Shown here in pieces: positions 12,730 to 64,000 of a stretch of DNA of 64,000 nucleotides (the stretch's first letter is position 1; each line of letters starts with the position of its first letter). A program made the position numbers and the translations under genes. The stretch covers positions 155,139,753 to 155,203,752 of the forward strand of contig NC_133123.1 in the NCBI RefSeq assembly GCF_033568475.1. The letters are read 5' to 3'. A model generated the notes under the pieces. The model worked only from the letters and a program-made list of their open reading frames with translations. It searched no databases and was not told the DNA's origin. Source of the stretch: Henckelia pumila (taxonomy: Eukaryota > Streptophyta > Magnoliopsida > Lamiales > Gesneriaceae).

Positions 12730-12919
12730 TGTATGAAATACTGAAATGAAAAACAGACATATATCAATGATTGTTTAAGTAATTTACTAAGACATAAAAT
12801 AGGCGAATTTAATTTTATGAATCTCACTCCCACTATTTTAACGATTTCACCACCCTCTAGTGAAAACGGGAAACTTTTCCTTAGTGAGAACATGGAGTCC
12901 AATTGACAAACTTATGGTC

Positions 12920-13879: not shown

Positions 13880-14010
13880 GATAAAATCATATTTTATATA
13901 TAAAATCTTATTTTACATATAAAATCATATTTTATCTCTTTATCAAATAAAATCATATTTTATCTACAAAATCCAATTTTATAGATAAAATCATATTTTA
14001 CTTAATATAT
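13880..14010. repeat. AT-rich tandem repeat (TATAAAATC-ATATTTTA units)
   Basis: Six or so near-copies of ATAAAATCATATTTTA follow one another. The unit is itself partly self-complementary. Copia E retains only a short version (43145-43170), so the array has expanded in A or contracted in E. Confidence 0.7.
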
Positions 14011-14245
14011 CCATAAGATCAAATCTTATCATCAATTGTACCAAAAATAATTGATTTCAAAATTCAATTTAAGGATAAAATATTAAAATTTTCCAAAAAT
14101 TCAAATTTATCCAAAAATCAATTTTAAAGTTTACGGACTCGAACAATTCGATCCGAAATCTCGTGAACCAATCAAAAACAATTTTTGACCGGACCAAAAA
14201 TAAAATTTTAACATATTAAAATTAATTTTAAATAAAAAATTTAAT

Positions 14246-14435
14246 TTTTCCCGCGGGCCGCCCGGGACACTCCCGGGCCGGCCCGCACCCGTGGGCGCGG
14301 GCCGGGGCAGCCCGGCTGCCCCTTTAGGGCAGCAACAATTGCTGCCCTGGGCGACGCCGTGCGCCGCCGTGGGCGGCGCACGGGGCAGCAACAATTGCTG
14401 CCCCACCGGGCAGCGATCCAATCGCTGCCCGGGTT
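14246..14435. repeat. GC-rich hairpin cluster near copia A primer-binding site
   Basis: Five perfect inverted repeats follow each other: GGCAGCCCGGCTGCC (14306-14320), arms GGGCAGCAA/TTGCTGCCC (14327-14347), GTGCGCCGCC/GGCGGCGCAC (14359-14381), GGGGCAGCAA/TTGCTGCCCC (14382-14404) and GGGCAGCGAT/ATCGCTGCCC (14408-14430). In the RNA they would lie 120-250 nt downstream of the primer-binding site, where dimerisation and packaging signals are found in retroviruses. Copia E has GC-rich inverted repeats at the same place (43412-43525) with different sequence. Confidence 0.8.
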
Positions 14436-14550
14436 TTGCCCCCGAAAATTTTTTTTTTTTTATTTAAAAATATTTATTTTGTTTCAAAAACCGAGACTCA
14501 AAAATTTTTTGTACAATTGATTAATTTAATCGTTTGATCTGAGCAACCTG

Positions 14551-14562
14551 GCTCTGATACCA
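14551..14562 (-). other. Primer-binding site of copia A
   Basis: The minus strand reads TGGTATCAGAGC, matching the 3' end of plant initiator methionine tRNA, one base from the LTR boundary at 14564. Confidence 0.92.
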
Positions 14563-14563
14563 C

Positions 14564-16445: not shown

Positions 16446-16450
16446 ACTCC
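16446..16450. other. Target-site duplication ACTCC, right copy, copia A
   Basis: It matches 6914-6918 exactly and is followed by the resumed gypsy D LTR. Confidence 0.9.
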
Positions 16451-17040
16451 TAAATATTTTTATGAATAAAAAGCTATACCTTCGTCCGTCGTTAGCCCTT
16501 TGCTGTCGATTGCCTCAAAACTAGGCCACAGCTCCGCTACGATGCCTGGATCGCTAAGCCACTTTTGGATTCCCGATGGAACGTCTAGAATTCCCTAGAT
16601 CTGAGTTTGAAGGTTAAGGAATCGAGAGAGAAGAGGTGATTGGTGCGTCTAAATCTGAATCTCGGCCCTCCTATTTATAGACGGAGTTTGGATCGTCCGA
16701 ACTGGACTTCGGAGCGTCCGAACATGATCGGACCGTCCGATCTCGACTTCGGGTCATTCGAACCCAATAATACGTCATTTCTTATGTCAGCACAATGACG
16801 TTATCCATGACGACTGTCGGCAGCACGTTTGGAGCGTCCGAACCCTGACTTCGGACCTTCCGAACCCTGACTTTGGAGCCTCCGAACTCGACGACCCTCG
16901 AACGATTTTCAAGTGTTCCGAATCCATTTCCGAACTCTGTTAATCCATCTGGGACTCCCTTAATCATGTTTTATTACATCTAAACATGATCGTATTATTA
17001 ATTACTCATAAATCGTTAATTCTGGATACGGGTTACTACA
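16451..17040 (-). repeat. Gypsy D 5' LTR, outer part with promoter
   Basis: This is the continuation of the LTR broken at 6918; the two parts sum to about 1,371 bp. It contains the minus-strand TATA box CTATAAATAG (16680-16671) and, just upstream of it, a CGGA-type dyad array. It ends TTACTACA at 17040, the same outer end as gypsy B and C. Confidence 0.88.
16682..16945 (-). promoter_or_regulatory. Dyad array upstream of gypsy D TATA box
   Basis: Seven clear sites of the type TTCGGANNGTCCGAA occur, with core starts near 16689, 16710, 16729, 16750, 16830, 16852 and 16874. Steps within clusters are 19-22 bp. The closest site is about 10 bp upstream of the minus-strand TATA box at 16680-16671. 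The position in U3 suggests an enhancer, but no binding factor is known to me. Confidence 0.65.
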
Positions 17041-17106
17041 TGTCATGATTGAGTTGTAATCGTTTGTAGACATAAAATAAATTTAATGTCACATTAAGGG
17101 GGAGCT
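17041..17106 (+). mobile_element. Possible pol-end and internal polypurine tract of Sirevirus-like element
   Basis: Short sequence squeezed between the gypsy D edge and the ORF promoter. It ends with AAGGGGGAGCT (17096-17106) followed by TGTTATT. This is the polypurine-tract signature found after pol in plant copia elements; Sireviruses carry several such tracts. It could instead be the 3' end of a separate copia element whose LTR starts at 17107. The assignment is tentative. Confidence 0.4.
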
Positions 17107-17254
17107 TGTTATTAAATTCGAGCAATTTAATTTTGGATAATATAAATAAATTGTATTTATTCAAAATTAAAAAGCTCACATTTTATGTGAATTATTTGAT
17201 TTAAAACTTAAATTTCAAAATTTAAATATTTAAGGTCATTTTCGATTTTCTGAC

Positions 17255-17613
17255 TTCGGCCAGTTCGGACCACCCGAACCCTAGTTCGGAGGACCCGAAC
17301 TGCCTCGCGCATTTTCAGTATAAAAACTTTCAAATTCCCTCCAAAATTACTAGTTCGGGCCCTCCGAACTTAGCTTCGGGTCGTCCGAACTCTTAGCGGT
17401 AAAACTTCGAATTTTGACCGCCCAATCTTCGGGCCCTCCGAAATTATTCGGACGTCACGAACTGAAAATGAACTGTTCGGACGCTCCGAACACTCTTCGG
17501 GTCCTCCGAACCTTTTCACAGCCTGACAGATAAGATAAAACTTATCACCTCGGTAATCAGGTTTGGGCCGTCCGAAACTAGGTTCGGACCGTCCGAACCC
17601 CCTGCTATAAATA
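17255..17613 (+). promoter_or_regulatory. Paired-dyad promoter with TATA box upstream of the 17687 ORF
   Basis: Ten TTCGG(A/G)-type dyads are arranged as five pairs. Core starts are 17266/17287, 17356/17377, 17430/17449, 17478/17498 and 17564/17585, giving within-pair steps of 21, 21, 19, 20 and 21 bp. A TATAAATA box follows at 17606-17613, 20 bp after the last site. The ORF ATG lies 73 bp after the box, as expected for a short leader. The region 17107-17254 before it is AT-rich with no recognised element. Confidence 0.7.
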
Positions 17614-17686
17614 CCTCAGGACATCCAAATGCTTCACACTAAAATCAATACTTTTCTCCTCCTTAATCCGAAATCTAGCCTACAAA

Positions 17687-18660
17687 ATGCCTGCCAAACG
17701 CCGTCGTGATCAAGCCAACTCTAGTCGCCCTATCCCTATTCATGATCCCAACCTACCTGCTATTTCACGTCATATCCCGGACGATTACCCCACTCGACCT
17801 TTTCTACCCGGTCGTACTTTAGATGTCACCTACCTTGCGACATCTCATCTGCTGATGTTGCCTCTCATTTCAGCCCAGCATTGGGAATCTTTTTTTCAGC
17901 CTTCCATTCCAGATTCTATTTTCCCAGAGTTACTTTACGAGTTCTATGCCAACCTGGAACTCGAACTTGGCGAGGAGCTCCATATCGCCACGATTGTCCA
18001 GGGTCGGCATGTTTGCTTTTCTGTCTCCAACTTTGCTGAGTGTTTTGATCTTCCTACAGCTGGACCCAGCAACTACTTTGGTCAGGGATGGCCTCTCGAT
18101 GATCCAAATTTTGATCGAGATGAGGTCCTTTCTACTATTCTTGGTCGTCCTGCTACTGCTTCCGATGATCGTCTGCTTTTGAAGCAACTCCGTCCTGACT
18201 ACCAAATCATTCAGAAATTGATCACCACTTCTATCATTCCGCGTAGTGGAGACTCCTCCACCTGCAAATATCTTGACCTCTATGTTCTCTATCATATCGT
18301 TTCCTCTCGTCCTTTCAACCTTCCTCGATTCATTATGCAGGCAATGCATAATGCGACTAAAGCCACGAGGAAAGTTTCTCTACCTTTTGCTCGTATCATC
18401 AACCGCATTTTGACTCATTTTGACATTTCTTTTGATGGCTTAACTCCTTTTTCCATCTCTCATTTCCACACTTTCAACCATTCTACGATTACCAAGATGA
18501 AACTATCTTGGAATCCTGTCCTTTCTTGTTGGGTTAATGACACAACTCGTGCCTTTAAAAAATATCTTTCGGACAAACATTTTTAACTTCCCTATTCCAG
18601 TCTTTCACCCACTTCTCAGGCTAAGGGCTTTCCCAATGGGCCGCCTGTAGAAGAAGGAGG
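17687..18660 (+). pseudogene. Envelope-position ORF of Sirevirus-like element, 5' part
   Basis: The ATG at 17687 starts a basic N-terminus (MPAKRRRD) and a 299-codon frame. It resembles the 'putative plant transposon protein' family seen in many plant genomes (LPLISAQHWESFF, LLYEFYANLEL, YLDLYVLYHIV, FDISFDG). A TAA at 18584-18586 ends the first frame, but the same frame stays open beyond it to 18660 and continues across the gypsy B insertion at 31971. That suggests one original gene with a single premature stop, or a readthrough stop. Function is unknown. It lies between a possible pol tail and the element's 3' LTR, the location of env-like genes in Sireviruses. I see no signal peptide. Confidence 0.65.
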
Positions 18661-18665
18661 ACCTT
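18661..18665. other. Target-site duplication ACCTT, left copy, gypsy B
   Basis: ACCTT lies directly before the TGTAGTGACCC edge of gypsy B and is repeated at 31971-31975. Confidence 0.92.
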
Positions 18666-20159
18666 TGTAGTGACCCTGCATGGAATCACCTACTAACTGG
18701 CAACTAATAGCATGCATTAAACTTAATACAGCAAAATACTTAACAGAGTAAAACGTGCGGAAACATAATCCATAAATTACATATCAGCTTAGTAAAATAT
18801 ATCCAAGCTTAATATTATAGTGATACAACCATATCGAAAAACTTAAAAGTAAACATTATACAGCTATATCGAATCCTGCTGTATAATAAACTCTTCAAGG
18901 CTCCTGCTCCCTATTCCTGCCTTGAACTACCAGCTCCGTCCATCCTGCGACCTGCCCCATGGAATAGGGTGTCCAAGATAATAATTAGGACGTGAGCGCT
19001 AACGCCCAGTACATAAACATGAGTAAACATATGTATATAGTGCATGCAACATGATGACTGGTAAAGGGTCATCTGAAAAGTCATGCTCAGTACCGGCGCC
19101 ACATGAGTGCTGCCACCGCATGGATCAACCTCTGGGTGCAATCACACTCGTCAAGTACACCAGAGTAGTCAGACATAAATTTCCCCGCCGTCGCGGTACT
19201 CTCAGTAACAGACTGTCGATTATAGAGCTGAGCGGCTCTATAATCAGGTATATCAAGGTATAGGCTCAACGTGTATATGCACATGACATATGAATATAGA
19301 AAGCGATAAATCATATATCATGCCATATAATAATGCCAAATAAATGCAACATATAAACATGTATACTCACTGGCAATCTCAGTCATTGTGTACGTACCTC
19401 TAAGCTAGTTCAAGTATAGTAGGATCCTAGGTTCCAAGCCTATATTCAGAAGTTCATCGTATCATTACACAAGTTCTATAAGCCTTAACTAAGATAATAA
19501 GTACTCCCAAAACTTAAATAGATTCCCGGACCATACCTTCGTCCGTCGATAGCCCTTTGAAGTCTCTAGTCCCGGATGACTATAATCACTCCTTGGTTAT
19601 TCCAGAACCTCTATTATAACCGATAGGGCCCTCAAGTGTATAACTCATACTATATAATTGAAGAAGAAAACTCGGGAATTCGTATTCAAATTATGACTCC
19701 GAAGAGCCCTATTTATAGGAAAATTTTCGGACGAGTTCGGGCCCTCCGAACTGGGGTTCGGATCATCCGATCCAACTCACTGCCTGCATGCGAGACACGT
19801 CGAGTTCGGACCATCCGATCACCACTTCGGGTCGTCCGAAGTGTCCTAAATTTGACACTTGTCAAAAACCATGGCTGAGTAATCTTGCCTACTTGGCACA
19901 GGTGAAGTTCGGGCCGTCCAATCTTACTTCGGATCGTCCGAACTTGCCTTAACTCCGAAGTCAACAAGCTCACCTTCGGAGCCCCCGATGTGCTGAGTTC
20001 GGGCCGTCCGAAGTCCTCTTCGGATCATCCAAACTGGCTCAGAAAATGAAAATCCAATTCTTGATTCTGAAGTCCGATTAAGCCCCCGAATTGGTTAATT
20101 ACCAACCCTTAATCATGTTTACCATATTATTATCTTAAAATGGAATATGGGTTACTACA
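18666..20159 (-). repeat. Gypsy B 3' LTR
   Basis: The LTR is 1,494 bp, TG...CA, adjacent to the polypurine tract at 20160. It contains a minus-strand TATAAATA at 19717-19710 and the dyad array at 19731-20035. No independent gene is present. Confidence 0.92.
19731..20035 (-). promoter_or_regulatory. Paired-dyad array in gypsy B LTR (TTCGG type)
   Basis: Sites of the TTCGG(A/G)NN(G/C/A)TCCGA(A/T) type have core starts at 19738/19759, 19807/19828 and 19910/19930, with within-pair steps 21, 21 and 20. Three more sites lie between 19975 and 20035. The TATA box is about 20 bp downstream in element orientation. The second LTR copy of the array is at 31545-31850. Confidence 0.75.
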
Positions 20160-20171
20160 TTCTCCCCACCT
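20160..20171 (-). other. Polypurine tract of gypsy B
   Basis: The minus strand reads AGGTGGGGAGAA, ending exactly at the LTR edge. The identical tract borders the gypsy C LTR at 26777-26788. Confidence 0.88.
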
Positions 20172-22303
20172 TTAGATATTTCGTCCGCGAAATAAAATCT
20201 AAAGACAAATCAAGATAATAATATGAAACATCAAACCATGTTTTATTACAACAAATACACAGCAAATAACTCAGGATATTCTGCTCGCATATGGCTCTCG
20301 GTTTCTCAAGTTGCTTCTTCAACGCCTCGGCGTTGCCACTGTACCATCACAAGTGGTATAGTCTTGTTCCGAAGAACTTTCTCCTTCCTGTCTAAGATAC
20401 GGAGTGGTCGTTCAACATACAACAGATCTGGCTTTAGCTGAACATCAGTAGATTGAATTACATGTGATTCATCAGCTATGTACTGTCGAAGTAACGACAC
20501 ATGAAAAACATTATGTATACTGGAAAAAGATGGCGGTAACGCCAAACGATAAGCAACATCTCCAATCTTCTTCAGTATCTGGAAAGGCCCAATGAAACAA
20601 GGTGACAACTTGCCTTTCACACCGAATCTCATCACCTTCCTGAAAGTTGATACTCGTAGGAACACATATTCACCAGGCTCAAACTGCAATGGCCTGCGAT
20701 GAATATTAGCATAACTGGCTTGTCTATCTTGAGCAGCTTTGATCCTCCGCTTGATCAAATCTACCTTATCTATAATCTGCTGCACCAACTCAGGACCCTC
20801 GACTTGTCGTTCTCCGACTTTATCCCAGAATAACGGAGTACGACACCGTCGACCATACAATGCCTCGAAAGGTGCCATATCAATACTACGATGATAAGTG
20901 TTATTGTAGGCAAATTCGATCAAAGGTAACTGATCCTACCAAGACAAACCAAAATCCATGACAGAAGAACGTAGCATATCCTCCAGCGTACGAATTGTCC
21001 GCTCTGACTGCCCATCAGTCTCCGGATGATATGCAGTGCTCAAACTCAGAGTGGTACCCAAAGCCTACTGAAAACTACCCCAAAAACGTGAGGTAAATCG
21101 CGGGTCTCTATCACTAACTATACTCACTGGAATCCCATGTAATCGCACTATCTCCTGGACATATAAGCGTGCCATGTGATCATAAGAATACTCCCGGTTG
21201 TAAGGAATAAAATGTGCTGATTTCATCAAACGGTCAACAACGACCCAGATAGCATCACACTGACGTGAAGTCATAGGCAAGTGAGTGACAAAATCCATAG
21301 TCACGTTCTCCCACTTCCATTCGGGAATCTCAAGATTCTGCAGTAATCCACCTGGTCTTCGATGTTCAGCCTTGACCTGTTGACAAACCAAACATCTTGA
21401 AACAAATTGATACACACTCCTCTTCATCCCTTTCCACCAGAATCTAGTTCGCAAGTCCTTATACATTTTCATACTACCAGGATGAACTGATAATCGACTC
21501 CTGTGAGATTGAGAAAGAATATCGTTCCTGAGATCCGCAACATTAGGTACAACCACTCGATTAGATAGGCACACTAATCCATCTGCCTGAAAATGGAATC
21601 CAGATGTATTAACCCCATTGGCTAGACGTGCCAAACGTTGAGTCTTAACATCAGATATCTGAGCATCTCTGATCCGAGGATACAATGCTGGCTCAGATAG
21701 AATAGTATACAATCGAATCTCATTTCTCCCTTTCCTGTGCTTGAGCGTAAAAATCAATGAACAGCACTCTTGTATCATATGAGATATTTCATTAGTCTGA
21801 AGTGCAGACAGTCTCACCTGCCGACTCAAGGCATCAGCAGTAAGATTAGCAGAACCTGGATGATATTTGATTTCACAATCATAATCCTTCAGAAGATCCA
21901 TCCAGCGTCTCTGTCGCATATTCAACTCCGCCTGAGTGAATAAATACTTCAAACTCTTGTGATCCGTAAATATCTCAAATTTCTCGCCATAAAGATAATG
22001 CCTCCAAATCTTGAGTGCAAATATAATGGCGGCTAACTTGAGATCATGTACTGGATAATTATTCTCATGCGTCTTCAACTGTCGAGAAACACAGGCTATA
22101 ACATGTCCATGCTGTGTAAGAACACATCCTAACCCCTGACTAGAGGCATCAGTATAGATAACATAACCTCCTGATCCAGAAGGTAGAGCTAACACAGGTG
22201 CAGTAGTAAGATGTCTACGCAGCTCGTGAAATGACTCCTCACAATCCGAGGACCATATGAAGGCAACATCTTTCCGTGTAAGCTGTGTCAAAGGCCTGGC
22301 CAA
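20172..22303 (-). pseudogene. Gypsy B RNase H, integrase and chromodomain-like tail, with stops
   Basis: RNase H is clear ([47 protein letters not shown]). The integrase follows, with its H2C2 finger ([10 protein letters not shown] ... CLVCQQ) and DDE core ([30 protein letters not shown]). In-frame stops occur at about 21068-21070 (relative has Lys in FQKALGTT), at 20936-20938 (Trp in SWQDQLPL region) and near 20304-20306 (Trp in EEATWETE). The C-terminal piece has the GEYVFLRVS linker and the LDRKEKVLRNKTIPLVMVQW ... GVEEAT tail of Tekay-type chromoviruses. Compare gypsy C, where the integrase half is still one frame. Confidence 0.88.
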
Positions 22304-23695
22304 TTATGCAAAATTCTCGATGAACCGAAGGTAATAACCCGCTAGACCCAAGAAACTTCGAATCTCAGCAACCGTCGTTGGACGAGACCAATTCAGCACT
22401 GCCTCTATCTTACTTGGATCAACAGATATCCCTTCACTAGAAATTACATGACCGAGAAACACTACGCGATCAAGCCAGAATTCGCACTTGCTTAATTTCA
22501 CATACAACTGCTTATCTCGTAACGTCTGTAAAACAATCCTCAGATGTTGTGCATGTTCATCCTTGTCATGAGAAAAGACAAGAATATCATCAATAAAGAT
22601 GATGACAAATCTATCCAGATATTCTCGAAATACCTGATTCATGAGATTCATAAAGACTTTCGGTGCATTCGTCAAACCGAATGGCATCACCAGAAATTCA
22701 TAATGCCCGTATCTGGTCCTGAAAGCAGTCGTAGAAATATTCGAGTCTCGTACCCGCATCTGGTCGTATCCAGATCTCATATCTATCTTCGAGTAAACAG
22801 AAGTACCCTGTAATTGATCGAACAGATCATCAATCCGCGGCAAAGGATACTTATTCTTGATGGTGACACGATTCAACTGCCTGTAATCAATACATAATCG
22901 CATCGATCCATCCTTATTCTTGAAAAACAACACAGGTGCTCCCCACGGAGAAACACTCGGACGGATATATCCCTTATCTAGCAGATCCTGTAACTTCTGT
23001 TTCAATTCCCTCATCTCTGATGGTGCCAGACGATAAGGTGCTCGGGATATAGGCGTAGTTCCTGGTACTAGATCAATACCAAATTCAACCTCTCGAACCG
23101 GAGGAAAACCAAGAATCTCATCAGGGAATACATCAGGAAACTCGCTGACAACCGGTAACTGATCGATACCCGGACTACTCGTGGACATATCAACTGCATA
23201 GATGAGGTAGCCCTCCCCACCTGACTCTAAGACATGACATGCCTTCAAAGCCGAAACAAGTGGCATCGGAGGTCGCGCACCCTCACCATAAAAGTACCAG
23301 CTATCACCCTCATCCGGATGAAACTGTACCAGACGCTGATAACAATCCACAGTAGCGTGATACAAAGTCAGCATATCTATTCCCAAAATACAATCAAAAT
23401 CTGCCATCGCTAGAATCATCATATTAGCAGACAACATGTGACCCTCAAACTCCAGAAGGCAACCCATCACTAGACGCTTAGTCACTACCTCCTGCTCTAG
23501 CGGAGTAGATACAACTAAATCCATATCTAATGATACATAAGGTAATCTATGTCTCTTAACAAAACGGCTAGAAATAAAGGAATGTGATGCTCCAGTATCA
23601 ATTAAAACAAGTGCAGGAATACCACATAACAAAAAGGTACCTGCCAACATGCGATCGCTTCCCTCAGTAGCCTGGTCTTGAGACAGAGCAAACAC
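22304..23695 (-). pseudogene. Gypsy B protease and reverse transcriptase (463-codon frame)
   Basis: The aspartic protease is near the start ([20 protein letters not shown]33 of this frame). After the linker [15 protein letters not shown] comes the full [46 protein letters not shown] (catalytic Asp pair), [25 protein letters not shown]. It ends in an in-frame TAA at 22304-22306 just before [11 protein letters not shown], so in the ancestor it continued into the RNase H part. Two small oddities are FFKNKDGS instead of FVKKKDGS, and GYDQ for the usual GYHQ. Confidence 0.9.
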
Positions 23696-23779
23696 CTGCC
23701 CTTGTGAGTGTGGATGGTAAACAGAAGAACTCTGTGGTGCTGGCTGCTGACGTGAAAAAGTAGAAGTCTGAGATCCAAC

Positions 23780-24714
23780 CTATGATCCCGATCCACTAGC
23801 AGAACTCGTACGCTGAGGACAATCTCTCCGCAGATGTCCCTGCTCACCACAAATATAACAAGCACCAGTAGCCTTCCGACATGAAGCTGCAGGATGTTTC
23901 TCTTCACAGTGGCTGCAAAATTCCTCCTTCTTCTTCTTCTTCTTCTTCCCGAAACGGAATGTACCTCGTGAACCACGAGAACCAGACGAAGTAATAGGAG
24001 TAGAAGAAGACATAGGTCCAGATTGCACAACAGATTGAGCTCTAGGCTCAAAAGATCCACTAGACTATCCTGGCATCATCAACTGTGCCCGCCTGTTGCT
24101 GGTCTCCACAAGACGGCAACGGTTCACCAAAGTCTCATAAGATGTCGGATCATCACAGACGACAACTTGTGAGTATATATCTTGATTCAAGCCTTGCAGA
24201 AAGATATCATACTTGGACGCATCACTGTCACTGATATGAGGACTAAAAGGTAGCAGATCAAGAATCGTTGCTGATATTGATCAATAGTCATTGATCCTTG
24301 CCTCAGAGTAAGCAACTCCAACGATCGTGCCTGGCGAACATCTGGAAGAAAATACAGTTTCTGAAACTGCTGACAGAAATCTCCCCAAGTCATCTGTCCT
24401 CTCTCAGTACGTGCCTGAGCAGCCTTGGCATCCCACCAAAAACGTGCTCGATCCTCTAGAACGAATTCTAGAACTTCCAATTTCTGCTCCTCAGTGCAAT
24501 AGAAAGCTCAAAAAGCACTCTCGAGTTTGTACATCCAACTTCTTGCTTGTTCAGGATTCTCGCCTCCCACCAAGGGTTTCGGTCCTACTTGCATGAACTT
24601 ATTAATAGTGTAGCGATGTCTACCCTCATGAGAACGATACTAATCATCACGATGGCGATGATGACGATCATGACCACCTCCCTGGCCAGCACTACCATGA
24701 CTCTCGTCAGCCAT
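23780..24714 (-). pseudogene. Gypsy B gag, frameshifted
   Basis: It starts at the ATG at 24714 (MADESHG, His/Arg-rich). Stops appear near 24641 and 24509, and the frame shifts around 24265 after QQRFL. The capsid part is recognisable (VLEFVLEDRARFWWDAKAAQ, WGDFCQQFQKLYF). A final frame (24028-23780) has a lysine run, a CX2C cluster (FCSHCEEKHPAASC) and the CCHC knuckle CYICGEQGHLRRDC. Confidence 0.85.
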
Positions 24715-24808
24715 ATCCTGAAAAGAATTGCACATTAAAATCCCAAATGTGCAAGAATTACTCAAGACTAAACTAAATACCAAGTACTAATTCCCAAAAT
24801 CTATGCAT

Positions 24809-24820
24809 GCTCTGATACCA
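24809..24820 (-). other. Primer-binding site of gypsy B
   Basis: The minus strand reads TGGTATCAGAGC, with a four-base gap to the LTR edge at 24825. Confidence 0.92.
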
Positions 24821-24824
24821 AAAA

Positions 24825-25317
24825 TGTAGTGACCCTGCATGGAATCATCTACTAACTGGCAACTAATAGCATGCATTAAACTTGAAACAGCAAAATACTT
24901 AACAGAGTAAAACGTGCGGAAACATAATCCATAAATTACATATCAGCTTAGTAAAATATATCCAGGCTTAATACTGTAGTGATACAACCATATCGAAAAA
25001 CTTAAAAGTAAACATTATACAGCTATATCGAATCCTGCTGTATAATAAACTCCTCAAGGCTCCTGCTCCCTAGTCCTGCCTTGAACTACCAGCTCCGTCC
25101 ATCCTGCGACCTGCCCCATGAAATAGGGTGTCCAAGATAATAACTAAGACGTGAGCGCTAACACTCAGTACATAAACATGAGTAAACATATGTATATAGT
25201 GCATGCAACATGATGACTGGTAAAGGGTCATCTGAAAAGTCATGCTCAGTACCGGCGCCACATGAGTGCTGCCACCGCACGGATCAACCTCTGGGTGAAA
25301 CCACACTTGTCAAGTAC
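24825..25317 (-). repeat. Gypsy B 5' LTR, inner part (493 bp)
   Basis: It begins TGTAGTGACCCTGCATGGAATCAT and matches 18666-19158 closely. It ends with AGTAC (25313-25317), the target duplication of gypsy C, and resumes at 30970. Confidence 0.92.
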
Positions 25318-26776
25318 TGTAGTGACCCTGCATGGTATCACCTACTAACTGGCAACTAATAGCATGCATTAAACTTAATACAGCAAAATAACTTACAGAG
25401 TAAAACATGCGGAAACAAAACCATAATTTACATATCAGCTTTAGTAATATAATCCAGGCTTAAATCTGTAGTGATACAACCAAATCAAAAACTTAAAAGT
25501 AAACATTATACAGCTATATCGAATCTTGCTGTATAATAAAATCCTCAAGGCTCCTACTCCCTAGTCTTGCCTTGAACTACCAGCTCCGTCCATCCTGCGA
25601 CCTGCCCCATGGAATAGGGTGTCCAAGATAACAACTAGGACGTGAGTGCTAACGCCCAGTACATAGACATGAGTACACATAAATATATGATGCATGCAAC
25701 ATGATGACTGGTAACGGGTCATCCGAAAATCATGCTCAGTACCGGCGCCACATGAGTGCTGCCACCGCACGGATCAACCTCTGGGCGCAACCACACTCGT
25801 CTAGTACACCAGAGTAGACAGACATAAATGCCCCCGCCGTCGCGGTACTCTTAGTGACAGACTATCGAGTATAGAGATGAGCGGCTCTATAGTCAGGTAT
25901 AACAAGGTATAGGCTCAACGTGTATATGTACATGACATATGAATATAGAAAGCGGTAAATCATATATCATGCCATATAATAATGCCAAATAAATGCAACA
26001 TATAAACATGTATACTCGCTGGCAATCTCAGTCAATATGTACGTACCTCTAGGCTAGTTCAAGTAAAGTAAGATCCTAGGTTCCAAGCCTATATTCAAAA
26101 GTTCACTGTATCACTACATCAATTCTATAAGCCTTAACTAAGCTAATAAGTACTCCCAAAACTTAAATAGATTCCCGGACCATACCTTCGTCCGTAGTTA
26201 GCCCTTTGGAGTCGCTAGTTCCGGATGACTATAACCATACCTTGGTTATTACAGAACCTCTATTATAACCGATAGGGCCCTCAAGTGTATATCTCACACT
26301 ATATAACTGAAGAAAGAAACTCGGGAATTCGTATTTCAAAATAAAATCGAACGAGCCCTATTTATAGGCAAAATTCCCGGCTAGGATCGGAACTTCCGAT
26401 TTCAGGATCGGAGCTTCCGATCCAGCTCACTGCGTGCATGTAAGACACGCCAGGATCGGAACTTCCGATCGGACGATCGGAGCTTCCGATCTGCTCTACG
26501 TTCAACACTTGTCAAAACTCGCGGCTGATTCATCGGGCAAAGCTGGCAGCCGGAGATCGGAACTTCCATTCCAGGATCGGAGCTTCCGATCTCGATGCTT
26601 CCGCTGAGCTTCCGAAGTGGCTGGGATCGGAGCTTCCGATCTGGGTTTGGAGCTTCCGATCCGGCCCAAAGTCAAAAGCCCATATTCCCTTCCGAAGTCC
26701 AATAACACTCCGAAATTACTAACCTTTAATCATGTTTAACATATTATTATCTTAAAATGGAATCTGGGTTACTACA
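25318..26776 (-). repeat. Gypsy C 3' LTR
   Basis: The LTR is 1,459 bp with TG...CA ends, bordered by the polypurine tract 26777-26788 (AGGTGGGGAGAA on the minus strand). It contains a minus-strand TATA box at 26366-26359. Confidence 0.92.
26385..26665 (-). promoter_or_regulatory. Paired-dyad array in gypsy C LTR (GATCGG type)
   Basis: Eight sites of GATCGGA(A/G)CTTCCGATC occur, two of them decayed. The first six start at 26385/26406, 26454/26475 and 26555/26575, so within-pair steps are 21, 21 and 20. In the first three pairs the left site has centre ACT and the right has GCT. The positions line up with the gypsy B array although the dyad sequence differs. The copy in the other LTR is at 30574-30860. 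Confidence 0.8.
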
Positions 26777-26896
26777 TTCTCCCCACCTTTAGATATTTCG
26801 TCCGCGAAATAACATCTAAAGACAAATTAAGATAACAATATGAAACATCAAACCATGTTTTATTCCAACAACTGTAATTACATCTTACATCGTAAA

Positions 26897-28222
26897 TCAT
26901 AAGTACAAAGCAAACAACTCAGGATATTTCGCTTGCATACGACTTTCAGTTTCCCAAGTTGCTTCTTCAACGCCTCGGCGCTGCCACTGTATCATCACAA
27001 GTGGTATAGTCTTGTTCCGAAGAACTTTCTCCTTCCTGTCTAGGATACGGATTGGTCGTTCAACAAAAGACAGATCTGGCTCTAGCTGAATATCAGTAGA
27101 CTGAATCACATGAGATTCATCAGCTATGTAATGTCGAATCAACGACACATGAAAAATATTATGTATACTGGAAAGATTTGGCGGTAAAGCCAAACGATAT
27201 GCAACATCTCCGATCTTTTCCAGTATCTGGAAAGGTCCAATAAAACGAGGAGACAACTTGCCTTTCACGCCGAACCTCATCACCTTCCTGAAAGGTGATA
27301 CTCGAAGAAACACATATTCACCAGGCTCAAACTGAAGTGGCCTGCGATGAATATTAGCATAACTGGCTTGTCCATCTTGAGCAACTTTGATCCTATGCTT
27401 GATCAAATCTACCTTGTTTACAATCTGCTGCACCAATTTAGGACCCTCGACTTGTCGTTCCCCGACTTCATCCCAGAATAACGGAGTACGACACCGTCGA
27501 CCGTACAATGCCTCGAAAGGTGCCATATCGATACTACGATGATAACTGTTATTGTAGGCAAATTCGATCAAAGGTAACTGATCCTGCCAAGATAAGCCAA
27601 AATTCATGACAGAAGAACGTAGCATATCCTCCAGCATACGAATCGTCCGTTCTGACTGCCCGTCAATCTTCGGATGATATGCAGTGCTCAAACTCAGAGT
27701 GGTACCCAACGCCTTCTGAAAACTACCCCAAAAACGTGAGGTAAATCGCGGGTCTCTATCACTGACTATGCTCACTGGAATCCCATGTAATCGCACTATC
27801 TCCTGGACATATAAGCGTGCCATGTGATCATAAGAATACTCCCGGTTGTAAGGAATAAAATGTGCTGATTTCATCAAACGGTCAACAACGACCCAGATAG
27901 CATCACACTGACGTGAAGTCATAGGCAAGTGAGTGACAAAATCCATAGTCACGTGCTCCCACTTCCATTCGGGAATCTCAAGATTCTGCAGTAATCCACC
28001 TGGTCGTCGATGTTCAGCCTTGACCTGTTGACAAACCAAACATCTTGAAACAAATTGATACACACTCCTCTTCATCCCTTTCCACCAGAATCTAGTTCGC
28101 AAGTCCTTATACAGTTTCATACTACCAGGATGAACTGATAATCGACTCCTGTGAGCTTGAGAAAGAATATCGTTCCTGAGCTCCGCAACATTAGGTACAA
28201 CCACTCGATTAGATAGGTACAC
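26897..28222 (-). pseudogene. Gypsy C integrase and chromodomain-like tail, uninterrupted (~440 codons)
   Basis: One open frame covers the H2C2 finger ([13 protein letters not shown] ... CLVCQQ), the DDE core (D in [11 protein letters not shown] in [16 protein letters not shown] in [12 protein letters not shown]), the GEYVFLRVSPF linker and the tail LDRKEKVLRNKTIPLVMIQW ... [21 protein letters not shown]. Gypsy B has three stops in the same region. Upstream of it, an in-frame TAG at about 28233-28235 separates it from RNase H. It might still fold as an integrase if expressed, but there is no RT in this element. Confidence 0.88.
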
Positions 28223-28235
28223 TAAACCATCTGCC

Positions 28236-28854
28236 TAAAAATGGAATCCAGATGTATTAACTCCATTGGCTAGACGTACCAAACGCTGAGTCTTAACATC
28301 AGATATCTGAGCATCTCTGATCCGAGAATACAATGCTGGCTCAGATAAAATAGTATACAATCGAATCCCATTTCTCCCTTTCTTGTGCTTGAGCATAAAA
28401 CTCAATGAACAGCACTCTTGAATCATATGAGATACTTCACTAGTCTGAAGTGCAGAAAGTCTCACCTGCCGACTCAAGGCATCAGCAGTAAGATTGGCAG
28501 AACCTGGATGATATTTGATTTCACAATCATAATCTTTCAGAATATCCATCCAGCGTCTCTGTCGCATATTCAACTCCGCCTGAGTGAATAAATACTTCAA
28601 ACTCTTGTGATCCGTGAATATCTCAAATTTCTCGCCATAAAGGTAATGCCTCCAAATCTTGAGCGCAAATACAATGGCGGCTAACTCGAGATCATGTACT
28701 GGATAATTAGTCTCATGCGTCTTCAACTATCGAGAGGCATAGGCATTAACATGTCCATGCTGTGTCAGAACACATCCTAACCCCTGACCAGAGGCATCAG
28801 TATAAACAACATAGCCTCCTGATCCAGAAGGTAGAGCTAGCACAGGTGCAGTAG
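28236..28854 (-). pseudogene. Gypsy C RNase H remnant
   Basis: It starts at the deletion joint near 28854 with the end of the RT region ([20 protein letters not shown]) and runs through RNase H ([36 protein letters not shown]). Two in-frame TAGs are present, at about 28728-28730 (Gln in ASRQLKTHE) and 28233-28235 (Gln in FHFQADGL). Both are CAG-to-TAG changes. Confidence 0.85.
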
Positions 28855-29396
28855 ATATCTTGGTTCAAACCTTGTAGAAAGATATCATACTTCGACGCAT
28901 CACTCTCATTGATATGAGGACTGAAAGGTAGCAGATCAAGAAATCGTTGCTGATATTGATCAATAGTCATTGATCCTTGCCTCAGAGTAAGCAACTCCAT
29001 CGATCGTGCTTGGCGAACAGCCGGAGGAAAATACAATTTCTGGAACTCCCGACAGAAATCCCCCCAAGTCACATGTCCTCTCTCAATACGTGCCTGAGCA
29101 GCCTTGGCATCCCACCAAAAACGTGCTCGATCCTCTAGAAAAAATTCTAGAACTTCCAATTTCTGATCCTCAGTACAATCGAAAGCACAAAAAGTACTCT
29201 CGAGTTTAGACATCCAACTTCTCGCTTGTTCAAGATTCTCACCTCCCACCAAGGGTTTCGGTCCTACTTGCATAAACTTATTAATAGAGTAGCGACTTCT
29301 ACCCTCATGATGACGATGTTGATCATCATGATGGCGGTGACGATGATGATGATGACCACCTCCCTGGCCAACACTAACATGACTCTCGTCAGCCAT
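28855..29396 (-). pseudogene. Gypsy C gag, truncated by internal deletion
   Basis: It starts at the ATG at 29396 (MADESHVSVGQGGGHHHH), with a long His/Arg/Asp-rich head and an intact capsid domain (CTEDQKLEVLEFFLEDRARFWW, FQKLYFPPAVRQARS, LLPFSPHINESDASKYDIFLQGLNQDIY). At about 28855 it fuses to sequence from the RT-RNase H boundary, out of frame. The CCHC knuckle, protease and RT are absent. A short repeated word (GTAGATATC/GTAGTAAG in relatives) at the joint suggests a microhomology deletion or template switch. Confidence 0.85.
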
Positions 29397-29489
29397 ATCC
29401 TGAAAAGAATTGCACATTAAAATCACAAATGCGCATTAATTACTCAAGACTAAACTAAATCCCAAGTACTAATCCCAAAATCTAAGCAT

Positions 29490-29501
29490 GCTCTGATACC
29501 A
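29490..29501 (-). other. Primer-binding site of gypsy C
   Basis: The minus strand reads TGGTATCAGAGC and sits next to the LTR edge at 29506. It is intact, so the RNA could still be primed by a helper system. Confidence 0.9.
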
Positions 29502-29505
29502 AAAA

Positions 29506-30964
29506 TGTAGTGACCCTACATGGTATCACCTACTAACTGGCAACTAATAGCATACATTAAACTTAATACAGCAAAATAACTTACAGAGTAAAACATGCGG
29601 AAACAAAACCATAATTTACATATCAGCTTTAGTAATATAATCCAGGCTTAAATCTGTAGTGATACAACCAAATCGAAAACTTAAAAGTAAACATTATACA
29701 GCTATATCGAATCCTGCTATATAATAAAATCCTCAAGGGTCCTGCTCCCTAGTCTTGCCTTGAACTACCAGCTCCGTCCATCCTGCGACCTGCCCCATGG
29801 AATAAGGTGTCCAAGATAACAACTAGGACGTGAGCGCTAACGCCCAGTACATAGACGTGAGTACACGTAAATATATGATGCATGCAACATGATGACTGGT
29901 AACGGGTCATCCGAAAATCATGCTCAGTACCGGCGCCACATGAGTGCTGCCACCGCACGGATCAACCTCTGGGCGCAACCACACTCGTCTAGTACACCAG
30001 AGTAGACAGACATAAATTCCCCCGCCGTCACGGTACTCTCAGTAACAGACTATCGAGTATAGAGCTGAGCGGCTCTATAGTCAGGTATAACAAGGTATAG
30101 GCTCAACGTGTATATGCACATGACATATGAATATAGAAAGCGGTAAATCATATATCATGCCATATAATAATGCCAAATAAATTCAACATATAAACATGTA
30201 TACTCGCTGGCAATCTCAGTCAATGTGTACGTACCTCTAGGCTAGTTCAAGTAAAGTAAGATCCTAGGTTCTAAGCCTATATTCAAAAGTTCACCGTATC
30301 ACTACATCAATTCTATAAGCCTTAACTAAGCTAATAAGTACTCCCAAAACTTAAATAGATTCCCGGGCCATACCTTCGTCCGTAGTTAGCCCTTTGGAAT
30401 CGCTAGTCCCGAATGACTATAACCACACCTTGGTTATTCCAGAACCTCTATTATAACCGATAGGGCCCTCAAGTGTATATCTCATACTATATAACTGAAG
30501 AAAGAAACTCGGGAATTCGTATTTCAAAATGAAATCGAACGAGCCCTATTTATAGGCAAAATTCCCGGCTAGGATCGGAACTTCCGATTTCAGGATCGGA
30601 GCTTCCGATCCAGCTCACTGCGTGCATGTAAGACATGACAGGATCGGAACTTCCGATCGGACGATCGGAGCTTCCGATCTACTCTACGTTCAACACTTGT
30701 CAAAACTCGTGGCTGAGTCATCGGGCAAAGCTGGCAGCCGGAGATCGGAACTTCCGTTCCAGGATGGGAGCTTCCGATCTCGGTGCTTCCGCTGAGCTTT
30801 CGAAGTGGCTGGAATTGGAGCTTCCGATCTGGGTTCGGAGCTTCCGATCCGGCCCAAAGTCAAAAGCCCATATTCCCTTCCGAAGTTCAATAACACTTCG
30901 AAATTACTAACCCTTAATCATGTTTAACATATTATTATCTTAAAATAGAATCTGGGTTACTACA
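29506..30964 (-). repeat. Gypsy C 5' LTR
   Basis: The LTR is 1,459 bp and contains the minus-strand TATA box (30554-30547) that would drive the element. It has the same dyad array as the 3' LTR with a few decayed sites. Confidence 0.92.
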
Positions 30965-30969
30965 AGTAC

Positions 30970-31970
30970 ACCAGAGTAGTCAGACATAAATATCCCCGCC
31001 GTCGCGGTACTCTCAGTGACAGACTGTCGAGTATAGAGCTGAGCGGCTCTATAATCAGGTATATCAAGGTATAGACTCAACGTGTATATGCACATGACAT
31101 ATGAATATAGAAAGCGGTAAATCATATATCATGCCATATAATAATGCCAAATAAATGCAACATATAAACATGTATACTCGCTGGCAATCTCAGTCATTGT
31201 GTACGTACCTCTAAGCTAGTTCAAGTATAGTAGGATCCTAGGTTCCAATCCTATATTCAGAAGTTCATCGTATCACTACATAAGTTCTATAAGCCTTAAC
31301 TAAGCTAATAAGTACTCCCAAAACTTAAATAGATTCCCGGATCATACCTTCGTCCGTCGATAGCCCTTTGAAGTCGCTAGTCCCGGATGACTATAACCAC
31401 TCCTTGGTTATTCCAGAACCTCTATTATAACCGATAGGGCCCTCAATTGTATAACTCACACTATATAACTGAAGAAGAAAACTCGGGAATTCGTATTCAA
31501 ATTATGACTCCGAAGAGCCCTATTTATAGGAAAATTTTTGAACGAGTTTGGGCCCTCTGAACTGGGGTTCGGATCGTCCGATCCAACTCACTGCCTGCAT
31601 GCGAGACACGTCGAGTTTGGACCGTCCGATCACCACTTCGGGTCGTCCGAAGTGTCCTAAATTCGACACTTGTCAAAAACCATGGCTGAGTAATCCTGCC
31701 TACTTGGCACATGTGAAGTTTGGGCCATCCGATCCTACTTCGGATCATCCGAACTTGCCTTAACTCCGAAGTCAACAAGCTCACCTTCGGAGCCCCCAGT
31801 GTGCTGAGTTCGGGCCGTCCGAAGTCCTCTTCGGATCGTCCGAACTGGCTCAGAAAATGAAAATCCAATTCTTGATTCTAAAGTCCGATTAAGCCCTCGA
31901 ATTGGTTAATTACCAACCCTTAATCATGTTTACCATATTATTATCTTAAAATGGAATATGGGTTACTACA
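30970..31970 (-). repeat. Gypsy B 5' LTR, outer part (1,001 bp)
   Basis: It resumes at ACCAGAGTAGTCAGAC after the AGTAC duplication and ends GGTTACTACA. It contains a TATA box (31528-31521, minus) and the TTCGG-type dyad array (31545-31850). Together with 24825-25317 it equals the 3' LTR length exactly. Confidence 0.92.
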
Positions 31971-32232
31971 ACCTTCTTATTCTGGCTTTCAGTCCATTCC
32001 AGCCAATCTTGGCGAGCTTCCATTTGAGATTCCCGAGATTCCTGCTACCCCTGCTCATCAGTATGATCGTCTTTTCGAGACTTTTCAGCGCATTGAAGGG
32101 AATCTAGTCAGCCACTTTGCATCTTCTACTGGCTCTATGGATGCCTTGAATATGAGAGTTGCCTCATTGGAGACTCGCTTTGACGACTTTCTTTCCTTCT
32201 ATCCTCCGCCTCAGCACGATGATGACTCTTAG
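31971..32232 (+). pseudogene. Envelope-position ORF of Sirevirus-like element, 3' part
   Basis: After the second ACCTT the frame left at 18660 resumes and stays open to a TAG at 32230-32232. The segment has a heptad-like stretch (FETFQRIEGNLVSHF, MDALNMRVASLETRFDDF) that could form a coiled coil, then a Pro/Asp-rich end. The phase is consistent: removing gypsy B and one TSD copy joins the two parts in frame, leaving only the TAA at 18584. Any ATG upstream of 31971 belongs to the LTR of gypsy B and is not the real start. Confidence 0.7.
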
Positions 32233-32521
32233 ATTTTATTTTGCTTTTTAAGTTGTACTTGTTTATGTTTTCTTGGCAAAATACAAAATTAGTTTAAATG
32301 AAATTATTGTGTATTTTAATTTTCTCATCTTTTATTAATTGCTTTTTGATTATCGCAAAAGGGGGAGAATTAATTTGGTTAAATAATTAAATGTTAAATT
32401 GAGGCGTAGTTTTAATGCTTAATCAATATTTGATTAAATTGTTTAAATATATTATTGCTCTATTGCTTATATTTTATTTCTCCTATTTAACCAAGTTTTG
32501 TGATCATCAAAAAGGGAAGAT
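32233..32521 (+). other. 3' untranslated region with two polypurine tracts, Sirevirus-like element
   Basis: This is AT-rich sequence without a gene. AAAAGGGGGAGA (32357-32368) and AAAAAGGGAAGAT (32509-32521) are polypurine tracts; the second abuts the LTR at 32522. More than one tract before the 3' LTR is a described Sirevirus trait. Confidence 0.6.
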
Positions 32522-32747
32522 TGTTACGCCTTAAATGCATACAAATCTCGTGTTATGATATTAATGTTTTTAATGCATTAACAACTTTCAAATTAAATTG
32601 TTTTGATGATTACAAAATTCAGTTAATCGTTACTAACATTTTAAAGTGAGAAATTTGCATATAATAATACTTTTGATTATGAACAATATTGGAAGCAAGA
32701 ACCGATAATCAAAAATTGGAGAAATAAAATTTAAAGTTCAAAATTGC

Positions 32748-33165
32748 CCAGGTTCGGACGACCCGAAGAAGGGTTCGGATGACCCAAAGATTTTTCCATA
32801 ATTAAATAAAGATCGGAGGACAGGCTCGGAGGGCACGGAAGACTTGTCCGGATGGTCCGAAGACAGTTCGGACAGCCCAAAGAATTTCCTGGATTTTAAA
32901 ATTGATCGAAGACACTCTCGGAGGCCACGAAATGCACACTTTGGACGACCCAAAGACTGGTTCGGAGGACCCAAACTACTTTACGGCCAGTGAAGATTTT
33001 GTCGAAAGAAAATTTGCCGAAATGAATTTAATGCAGCCGTTCGGATGACCCGAAGATGACTTCGGACCACCCGAACAGTTCATCAGCCGCAGAAATTTGA
33101 ACTTGAATCAGACAACGTTCGGACGACCCAAAGACCCGTTCGGAGGCTCCAAACCCGTTCGGATT
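32748..33165 (+). promoter_or_regulatory. Paired-dyad array in Sirevirus-like LTR
   Basis: Sites of the TTCGGA(N)GACCC(G/A)AA type have core starts at 32755/32776, 32827/32849/32869, 32919/32942/32963, 33042/33063 and 33120/33141. Most steps are 20-22 bp, and 21 is the most common. The right half-site is often CCCGAA or CCCAAA, so the dyads are less perfect than in gypsy C. The TATA box at 33172 follows the last site. Confidence 0.65.
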
Positions 33166-33494
33166 TGCAACTATAAATACATGCCATTTGAAGCCATTTC
33201 AACTCACCAATTCACTCCCATATCTCATTTCAAGCAACATCCTCTCCTTCAAAGTATTCAAGTGATAGTTGTGCGATTTATTCAAAATCGAGGTTTGTTT
33301 GTATTAAATCATTTGTGAGTTGGTTGCTCGATTATTGTAAACACTTGTGTGTGAAGCCAAGTGTATTTTGCGAGTGTTGTGGCTATCCTTGGAGCCCTTA
33401 AGGCCAAGTGTTCGAGTTGTATCGGCGCGGTGAACGTGTTGAGTTGTAAGGCTATCCTTGGAGCCATCAAGGCCAAGATGTTCGAAGTGCTAGT

Positions 33495-34099
33495 TAGGGG
33501 TGGGCGTCGGGTCGGGTTTTGTCGGGTTCGGGTGTTTCGGGTCGGGTACCCGACTAGTCGGGTAGTCATTTTGACTACCCGAATCCGACCCTAAAATATC
33601 GGGTAGTTTCGGGTATCACAATGCGGGTACCCGACATGTTTTCATTCAACCCTTTTTTTCTTCACAGGTCAGCTTTTTTTCACATAGAACAAATATCAAA
33701 CACATGGTGGACATTAATGAAAACAGGAACTGCTAAACGAAAAACACAACCAAATATGCAACAACAATCTCAATCAATAAGCAAACCTAAATCAGATTCT
33801 AGATCTAGCCAACACATACAAAGACAAGGTGTGAAAGTGGAGAACAAAATGTTCTAATAGATTGGGCATCTTTTTTTTCACAGATTCAGTGCTTCAATTC
33901 TTCAAGACTTCGATTCTCCTGGTATGAGAGAAAGAGAGTGATCAAGAACTTGGGAAACAAATCGAAACCAGCTGCCATAGACGCTACAGAAGAAGACCGG
34001 AAGAATTTAGATTTGGGCTTCCCAATTGTGTATATTGGACTTGGTTTAAGAACAGTGGCTAGATATTCCAAGTTCTAACCAGAAGTCGGATAGTGTATT

Positions 34100-63579: not shown

Positions 63580-64000
63580 TGTAGTAGCTCGTAACCAAAA
63601 TCAGTAATTAAGAAATTAATCATAATTACTTGAATAGAGTTCGGAAGCTCCGAATGTAGGTTCGGAAGTTTCGAACAGGATCGGAAGCTCCGATCATATT
63701 ACGTCAGGCATGACGATTGGCTAGATCGGAAGCTCCGATCAGGATCGGAAGCTACGATCACCCCTATCCGAAGTCAACCAGTGATATTTTGACACATGGC
63801 AGATCAGGATCTTCGAAAGCTCCGATGGCAGGATCGGACGTTCCAATCGAGGTTCGGATATTCCGATCGAGGATCGGAAGTTCCGATCGTTGTCTATAAA
63901 TAGAGGGCCGGGGCTTCATTTCCAATTGCCAATTCCGAGTATTTCCCTCTCCTTTCTAGTCTATTCGAGTTGTTCTAGCCTTCCTAGGCTTGACTCGGTG
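63580..64000 (+). repeat. Gypsy-type LTR start, runs off the window
   Basis: It begins TGTAGTAGCTCGTAACC, similar to the outer end of gypsy B, C and D LTRs (TGTAGTAACCC), and interrupts the MULE reading frame. It contains a dyad array and a TATA box, so this should be the U3 of a + strand element continuing to the right. The 5-bp target word would be AGAGAC-like sequence ending at 63579. Confidence 0.7.
63640..63902 (+). promoter_or_regulatory. Mixed dyad array and TATA box in the right-edge LTR
   Basis: Both dyad types coexist: TTCGGAAGCTCCGAA-like sites at 63642 and 63663, and GATCGGAAGCTCCGATC-like sites at 63682, 63727, 63746, 63835 and 63875, with a hybrid at 63855. Steps are 19-21 bp within clusters. 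TATAAATA follows at 63895-63902. Confidence 0.75.

Follow-up and report, generated by a model that had tools for sequence, protein, structure and literature searches.

The 64,000-bp stretch of Henckelia pumila DNA analyzed here (contig NC_133123.1; hereafter the window, with positions counted from its first letter) contains a nest of long terminal repeat (LTR) retrotransposons. Gypsy B, on the minus strand, lies inside the region of an ENV-like open reading frame (ORF) of a Sirevirus-type element and is bordered on both sides by the target duplication ACCTT. Gypsy C, a close relative of B on the same strand, is inserted at 25318-30964 into the 5' LTR of B with the target duplication AGTAC, splitting this LTR into 24825-25317 and 30963-31970. 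Part of an LTR of a third gypsy element, gypsy D, and an LTR at the right edge complete the set. The elements were delimited by self-comparison, boundary inspection and Pfam. The subject of this report is a short palindrome, the dyad CGG[AG]N3[CT]CCG, which forms arrays immediately 5' of the TATA box in the LTRs of these elements and in front of the ENV-like ORF. All statistics are drawn from this single window.

The dyad and its arrays

The dyad occurs 48 times in the 64 kb, whereas 100 dinucleotide-preserving shuffles average 1.2 occurrences and never exceed 5. The length of its spacer is specific, because CGG-N5-CCG is found 51 times, whereas every other spacer from 0 to 15 gives only 2 to 16 occurrences. 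Forty-four of the 48 sites fall inside eight segments with a total length of 2703 bp, which were set slightly wider than those of a preliminary description of this DNA. The sites outside the arrays are at 14254 and 43413, which correspond to each other in a related pair of copia elements, and at 25715 and 29903, an equivalent place in both LTRs of gypsy C. The arrays are rich in CpG, with observed/expected ratios of 1.05-1.62 in the eight arrays versus 0.80-1.15 elsewhere in the same stretches.

An alignment of 51 sites with at most one mismatch, taken from one LTR per element, extends the motif to about 17 bp, G-[T/A]-TCGGA-NNN-TCCGA-[A/T]-C, beyond which the flanks carry approximately zero information. 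The palindrome is longer than the core CGGRN3YCCG of the preliminary description. The inner position of 55 dyads is A..T in 31, A..C in 18, G..T in 6 and G..C in none. Even though the search pattern itself favours R..Y at this position, these counts fit half-sites that are read separately, tolerating A>G, rather than a conserved RNA pair.

The TATA boxes of the window have the sequence TATAAATA, which is present 22 times on both strands. Eight of these boxes have 6-9 dyads (at most one mismatch) within 320 bp upstream, and these are the eight LTR or promoter copies of the two lineages described below. The box at 17141 on the plus strand has three dyads upstream, at the positions of the gypsy D array, and the remaining 13 have none. 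No dyads with at most one mismatch were found in six LTR-type repeats of other copia elements. These controls represent two families: four of the six come from the elements at 6912-16450 and 36700-45534, whose sequences are 87-90% alike, whereas the other two (54036-56692) are tandem repeat units containing an LTR, not clean LTRs.

The last dyad of an array is separated from the TATA box by 7, 7 or 8 bp or by 18, 18 or 19 bp, two classes that are one helical turn apart. When related arrays are merged, leaving four values, simulation gives a p value of 0.002-0.005 for clustering in phase with a 10.5-bp turn. The sample is small, and the p value is indicative only because the regularity was noticed in the data beforehand. 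A half-dyad is present within the gap in the Sirevirus LTR.

Neighbouring dyads are regularly spaced. When up to two mismatches are allowed and one LTR per element is counted, 31 of 49 adjacent steps measure 19-23 bp, two measure 24-40 bp and none is shorter than 19 bp. Random non-overlapping placement gives 10.5 +/- 2.6 steps of 19-23 bp and a maximum of 19 in 2000 trials. The excess persists if gypsy C is dropped (27/42), in the Sirevirus element alone (11/19) and in gypsy D, B and the right-edge LTR taken together (16/23); the counts obtained without C or for a single lineage were not reached in any of 4000 simulations, whether the minimum spacing was set to 13, 17 or 19. The linkers between paired dyads are 4 to 8 bases long, and their sequences are different in most pairs, for which reason recent tandem copying was rejected as the sole source of the step. 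Of the 36 mismatches in 72 dyads, 23 are changes of the C-T type that affect outer CpGs.

The preliminary description had claimed the arrays themselves, their position directly 5' of TATAAATA and a step of about 21 bp, and all three are borne out by these counts. Its coordinates are correct to within a few bases, except for one pair that is off by 3 (26388/26409, not 26385/26406).

Two lineages of elements

Gypsy B encodes the pol domains RVT_1, RNase H, integrase zinc domain and SH3_Tf2-1, and gypsy C encodes gag, integrase and SH3_Tf2-1 domains (Pfam). Both are Ty3/gypsy elements; their assignment to the chromodomain group is weak, as the Chromo match of C (E 5.9e-4, 20.2 bits) is under the cut-off of 25.1. 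In both elements the 5' LTR is followed by TGGTATCAGAGC, which we take to be the initiator-Met tRNA primer site. Pieces of gypsy pol at 2733-5060 on the minus strand may belong to gypsy D.

The 3' LTRs of B and C have common termini and are 91% identical from the TATA box onward (956/1049). Gypsy D has the terminus TGTAGTAACCC in common with B and C and matches them in stretches farther downstream (E 1e-7 and 3e-8). The right-edge LTR has a weaker link to D, consisting of a similar terminus and a 20-base match at the TATA box (E 0.007 with the dyads masked). Judged by these sequence similarities, gypsy B, C and D are one Ty3/gypsy lineage, to which the right-edge LTR, by its terminus and TATA region, probably belongs as well. 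The shared termini, the downstream stretches and the TATA region of D and the right edge rule out counting the gypsy arrays as independent cases. Because the gypsy arrays are related to each other, the number of independent lineages is two.

The gypsy and Sirevirus arrays were compared by blastn with the dyads masked (word size 7, plus strand, matches kept to E 1; the B and C LTRs were represented by their first 700 bases). Gypsy arrays matched other gypsy arrays and the two Sirevirus arrays matched each other, but there was no match between gypsy and Sirevirus at E <= 1. By this comparison there are two lineages, not five or eight, and the dyad and the TATA box are all that was found common to both. 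The preliminary description spoke of unrelated retroelements, which holds for the Sirevirus element versus the gypsy group but not for the gypsy arrays among themselves. One query of IMG/VR with exact peptide patterns gave no relatives of the gypsy C integrase, and the paired-dyad pattern matched one contig, L001.

The Sirevirus-type element and the RM boxes

Palindromic CGG-CCG sequences, the RM boxes, were described by Bousios et al. in 2010 (PMC2829016) in the LTRs of Sireviruses, 5' of the TATA box, and before ENV. According to the accessible part of that paper, from which all statements about RM boxes here are taken, the boxes are Sirevirus-specific and absent from classic copia elements, and a regulatory role was proposed without naming a binder. 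The view of the preliminary description that no plant enhancer of this form had been described is therefore mistaken. The arrays of the window resemble RM boxes in their palindromic CGG-CCG core, their many copies, their CpG richness and the TATA box downstream. The RM consensus of the element HOPIE, CGGACCGTCCG, is exactly the present dyad form, and most other boxes also have five inner bases; some have four or six (Vitis, Usier; Osr9), unlike the dyads here.

The RM class is characterized by an LTR cluster that begins 200-400 bp past the junction of the polypurine tract (PPT) and the LTR, and by a second cluster before ENV (PMC2829016). In the Sirevirus-type element the LTR array begins 231 bp past the LTR start, with the TATA box downstream, and a second cluster with the same CGG-CCG palindromic core lies 5' of the ENV-like ORF. 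Compared to the at least eight copies per element in the RM class, there are 10 dyads before ENV and 11 in the 3' LTR with up to two mismatches; the strict pattern is matched by 8 and 4, respectively. Sireviruses also have multiple PPTs of the sequence AGGGGGAG, the last of which lies 10 bp upstream of the 3' LTR (PMC2829016). In the window, exact copies of this published octamer are found at 17097 and 32360, whereas the terminal tract, close to the start of the 3' LTR, reads AAGGGAAG. No copia pol of this element was recognized by Pfam among the ORFs of the window.

The ENV-like piece matches the Pfam family PF20167, 'Putative plant transposon protein' (E 3.8e-21), and no other; it has no solved structural relative at E <= 1. 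Its putative identity as ENV is based on its position and on PF20167, and not on a match to any named Sirevirus ENV. The TATAAATA box at 17606-17613, located 8 bp past the pre-ENV array and some 80 bp upstream of the ATG of the ENV-like ORF, is a candidate for the internal ENV promoter. Such a promoter could not be conclusively identified by Bousios et al. (PMC2829016).

The gypsy arrays differ from the RM class in two respects. They begin about 60-126 bp from the LTR start, outside the 200-400 bp interval, and they are found in gypsy B, C and D and in the right-edge LTR (probably gypsy), whereas RM boxes were reported to be confined to Sireviruses (PMC2829016). The accessible text gives no step length for RM boxes, compared to 19-23 bp here.

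Two other systems are worth comparing, again from partial texts. The maize palindrome CACCGGACNNNGTCCGGTG, of the CGG..CCG type, occurs in structured regions of Copia/Sirevirus elements and is tied to small RNAs and methylation; in Helitrons, too, the CGG..CCG palindrome ranks first among the motifs (Martin et al. 2023, PMC10760457). It differs from the dyad in its inner bases and, as printed, in its longer spacer, and the present arrays occur in gypsy LTRs in addition. The targets of VANC proteins in VANDAL elements are, like the arrays here, repeated short non-coding motifs that diverge fast between families and overlap methylation targets (PMC5735166, PMC10398659). Unlike the dyads, they belong to DNA transposons, have the sequences YAGTATTAY or AGTTGT(C/A)C, are not described as palindromes in the accessible text and are bound by an element-encoded protein (PMC5735166, PMC10398659).

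Evolution of the dyads

The arrays of gypsy B and C show which bases are retained. For the sites defined in B, 47 of 54 CGG/CCG bases are kept in the 3' LTR of C, whereas only 42 of 81 of the remaining dyad bases and 95 of 158 of the bases in array spacers are. The proximal steps of 21, 48 and 21 bp are conserved. The versions of the dyad, however, differ between the two relatives. In gypsy C all eight dyads have the centre AAG(C/T)T and six of the eight read exactly ATCGGAAG(C/T)TCCGAT, whereas all nine dyads of gypsy B end in CCGAA and have mixed centres. The change of dyad version between B and C is concerted. The centre AAG(C/T)T is also found in 7 of 9 right-edge dyads, and the outer positions in D and in the Sirevirus arrays are mostly T..A.

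The decay of CpG was followed by comparing the two LTRs of an element, on the assumption that they did not differ when the element inserted. In gypsy B, C-T type changes affect 12 of 25 dyad CpGs but only 3 of 30 other CpGs (p 0.002). The corresponding numbers in gypsy C are 3/16 and 8/55 (p 0.70), and pooling of both pairs gives 15/41 and 11/85 (p 0.004). These differences would fit methylation after insertion, clearly in B and indistinguishably from other CpGs in C.

Other sequences within the arrays were observed. The wide gaps in the arrays of B (~19828-19910), C (~26478-26558) and the right edge (63746-63814) share a stretch, TTTTGACANNTG, and the words TGACG/ACGTCA are present in gaps of the D array (16750-16830) and of the right-edge array (63682-63727). 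We presume that the stretch and the words could be W-box or bZIP sites.

Organization of the window

The features discussed above are listed in Table 1. The upstream part of the gypsy B 5' LTR is 96.3% identical to 19152-20159 of the 3' LTR. The piece at 31971..32231, past gypsy B, is probably the downstream part of the same ENV-like ORF; it was not joined to the piece at 17582..18586.

Table 1. Elements, dyad arrays and coding pieces in the window
Feature	Positions	Strand	Description
Gypsy D LTR, 5' part	16451..17040	-	Begins TGTAGTAACCC at 17040; interrupted by a copia element at 16450
Gypsy D array	16687-16922	-	8 dyads; TATA box 16672-16679, gap 7
Sirevirus pre-ENV dyad array	17264..17597	+	10 dyads with up to two mismatches; TATAAATA at 17606, gap 8 bp
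Sirevirus pre-ENV dyad positions	17266/17287, 17356/17377, 17430/17449, 17478/17498, 17564/17585	+	
ENV-like ORF, first part	17582..18586 (stop-to-stop)	+	First ATG ~17687; interrupted by gypsy B
Gypsy B 3' LTR	18666..20159	-	Array 19736-20033, 9 dyads; TATA box 19710-19717, gap 18
Gypsy C 3' LTR	25318..26776	-	Array 26386-26660, 8 dyads; TATA box 26359-26366, gap 19
Gypsy C coding pieces (Pfam)	26897..29435	-	gag 28797-29435; integrase, SH3_Tf2-1 and weak chromodomain 26897-28234
Gypsy C 5' LTR	29506..30964	-	Array 30574-30848, 8 dyads; TATA box 30547-30554
Gypsy B 5' LTR, upstream part	30963..31970	-	Array 31547-31844, 9 dyads; TATA box 31521-31528
Sequence past gypsy B	31971..32231	+	One frame, from 31972, open to TAG
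Sirevirus 3' LTR	32522..33500	+	Begins TGTTACGCC; 33500 is an arbitrary right end
Sirevirus LTR dyad array	32753..33153	+	11 dyads; TATAAATA at 33172, gap 18 bp
Right-edge LTR	63580..64000	+	Begins TGTAGTAGCTCGTAACC at 63580, at the end of the transposase ORF of a Mutator-like element (MULE)
Right-edge array	63640-63887	+	9 dyads; TATA box 63895, gap 7

Several further features were noted. A near-palindromic 17-bp tandem array, ACCCAAGCCTTGGGTCA, with about 9.5 copies occupies 61364-61523 in non-coding DNA, about 260 bp 5' of ORFs with PF10532 (28.8 bits, cut-off 30) and MULE transposase domains. VANDALs, the class holding the VANC targets, are MULEs. A third copia element (54036-56692 and 60259-60714) has RVT_2 at 58514-59815, and at one end a 1.33-kb LTR-bearing unit of this element is tandemly duplicated (54036-55368 and 55370-56692, 96.7% alike). 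On the plus strand, the sequence AGGGGGAGAATTGTAAGGCCC at 752-772 combines a polypurine tract with a possible LTR start just after it. The minus strand carries a Dof zinc-finger gene consisting of a single ORF at 49351-50268 (PF02701, E 9.3e-34).

A model for the function of the arrays

Taken as a whole, the reading that we consider probable is that the arrays are cis-regulatory, that they are bound by a dimer in both lineages and that the host methylates them after insertion. The arrays would be U3 enhancers of a Sirevirus (Ty1/copia) and of a chromodomain-type Ty3/gypsy lineage. A dimeric protein probably binds each 17-bp palindrome, with one (T/A)TCGG(A>G) half-site per subunit, and the distance of about 21 bp between neighbouring dyads would place two dimers on one face of the helix. 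The TATA-proximal dyad would be held at either of two distances from the TATA box, one turn apart. The Sirevirus arrays belong to the published class of RM (CGG-CCG) boxes, the pre-ENV cluster presumably acting as an internal promoter, and the gypsy lineage would have evolved or acquired the same type of site. After insertion, methylation of the CpG-rich dyads by the host would lead to their C-to-T decay.

The same dyad and the same step without other similarity point to one DNA-binding activity, suggesting that both lineages use it. Sharing of the site by convergence or by common use of a host factor is favoured, with methylation as a consequence. A single activity was also proposed in the preliminary description. 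The common dyad and step in two dissimilar lineages speak for this proposal, but the gypsy arrays do not count as independent support. CpG methylation, offered there as the alternative, is not opposed to binding, and an excess decay of dyad CpGs is seen in one gypsy LTR pair.

The half-site of the LOB-domain (LBD) proteins is CGG-like. These proteins are a plant zinc-finger family, and the crystallized dimer is said, in the part of the source available, to bind a palindrome (PMC6861928). No LBD binding site of the exact dyad form was found in the literature searched. By analogy only, an LBD protein may be regarded as a candidate host binder.

A more detailed version of the model is tentative. 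One host- or element-encoded dimeric activity may serve two superfamilies through a CGG-N5-CCG dimer site, with two dimers per two turns and the last site phased to the TATA box. Families might then diverge by an array-wide, concerted switch of the dyad version, as if tracking a change of the binder.

Several observations weigh against the model of dimers on regularly spaced sites. If the strict pattern is required, no more than 11 of 27 steps are 19-23 bp long, a low count that is explained by the degeneracy of many partner dyads. Some linkers repeat: D has two identical GTCAGGG linkers, and CAGG and CGAGG recur at the right edge. Steps longer than 23 bp are out of phase with the pairs; they cluster weakly (R 0.43, p ~0.03, n=18), many of them about half a turn away. 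A helical phase that extends over all dyads is thus not supported, nor is the common helix face of the preliminary description beyond the pairs. Close packing of a 17-bp site, or an old tandem duplication, might account for part of the 21-bp step. Furthermore, the sample consists of two lineages only, in one window, with one or two LTRs per element.

Alternative explanations

The palindromes might matter mainly as RNA hairpins or as targets of small-RNA-directed methylation: U3 transcripts would fold, be diced and guide silencing, and the array would be a by-product. In maize, small RNAs are in excess on the palindrome clusters of Sirevirus (Bousios 2016, as quoted in the accessible part of PMC10760457). 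Compared to shuffles, the folds of four of the six arrays are more stable (z -8.6, -7.0, -4.5 and -3.7), with B, C and the right edge below -40 kcal/mol in a 110-nt window. The other two fold ordinarily (z -1.6 and -1.4), however, and two of four dyad-free controls, both copia LTR-type repeats, fold well too (z -5.2 and -4.1; the others -1.6 and -1.1). As half of the controls fold as well, the hairpin is not supported as a feature specific to the arrays. The innermost stem position would be an A-C mismatch in 18 of 55 dyads, and hairpins do not require a regular step or a TATA phase. The C-T excess at dyad CpGs in gypsy B and in the pooled pairs agrees with a methylation target, but its absence from gypsy C alone does not. 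Overall, this explanation is unlikely. Slippage and gene conversion could, on the other hand, have multiplied a U3 palindrome neutrally, so that the spacing is that of a repeat unit and no protein reads it. Tandem Repeats Finder detects short arrays with a period of 19-22 within the segments, the repeated linkers of D and the right edge agree with copying, and the array evolves fast (60% identity of the spacers of B and C versus 91% from the TATA box onward). Neutral copying does not account for the same dyad in two lineages that have no other detected similarity, nor for the retention of the CGG/CCG triplets above their surroundings between B and C, nor for the constant position just 5' of the TATA box in eight arrays. 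We regard it as improbable.

An element-encoded anti-silencing or regulatory protein could also be the binder, as with VANC, with the site versions of a family changing in concert with the protein. Such a binder would explain the concerted change of the dyad version, which in gypsy C is near-uniform compared to its relative B, with the proximal steps conserved; the second Sirevirus array precedes an ENV-like gene, which is also in line with it. VANC targets are repeated non-coding motifs that differ between related families, and VANC6 motifs occur in an unrelated element, AT9TSD1, as well (PMC5735166, in the part available). The searched ORFs of gypsy B and C of at least 150 amino acids are, however, gag or pol (28235-28726 and 23602-24075, the latter a 157-residue overlapping frame, lay outside this search), and the ENV-like piece has its one Pfam match and no solved relative. 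The stem 'palindrom' is absent from the main text of the two VANC papers (PMC5735166, PMC10398659). A VANC-like protein is an improbable binder, and the model of a dimer-bound cis-regulatory array is preferred.

Implications

As far as could be found, the dyad in gypsy LTRs, the shared step, the one-turn TATA phase and the concerted change of the dyad are new. A gypsy version of the motif was not found among the open-licence papers listed, as far as their accessible text goes, and may have been reported elsewhere; in the same sense, gypsy dyad arrays were not found in PMC3485330, PMC6911290, PMC11963269 and PMC9073684. No binder of the Sirevirus boxes has been named since 2010 in the accessible parts of the literature found.

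A second superfamily with the same site and spacing provides a precise probe for the binder, namely paired 17-bp sites with a 21-bp step. It also offers a clean comparison, because the same binder should act on both lineages. If the model is true, it would also illustrate how a single host activity can come to be used by transposons of unrelated origin, through convergence or sharing, even as these very bases are methylated by the host.

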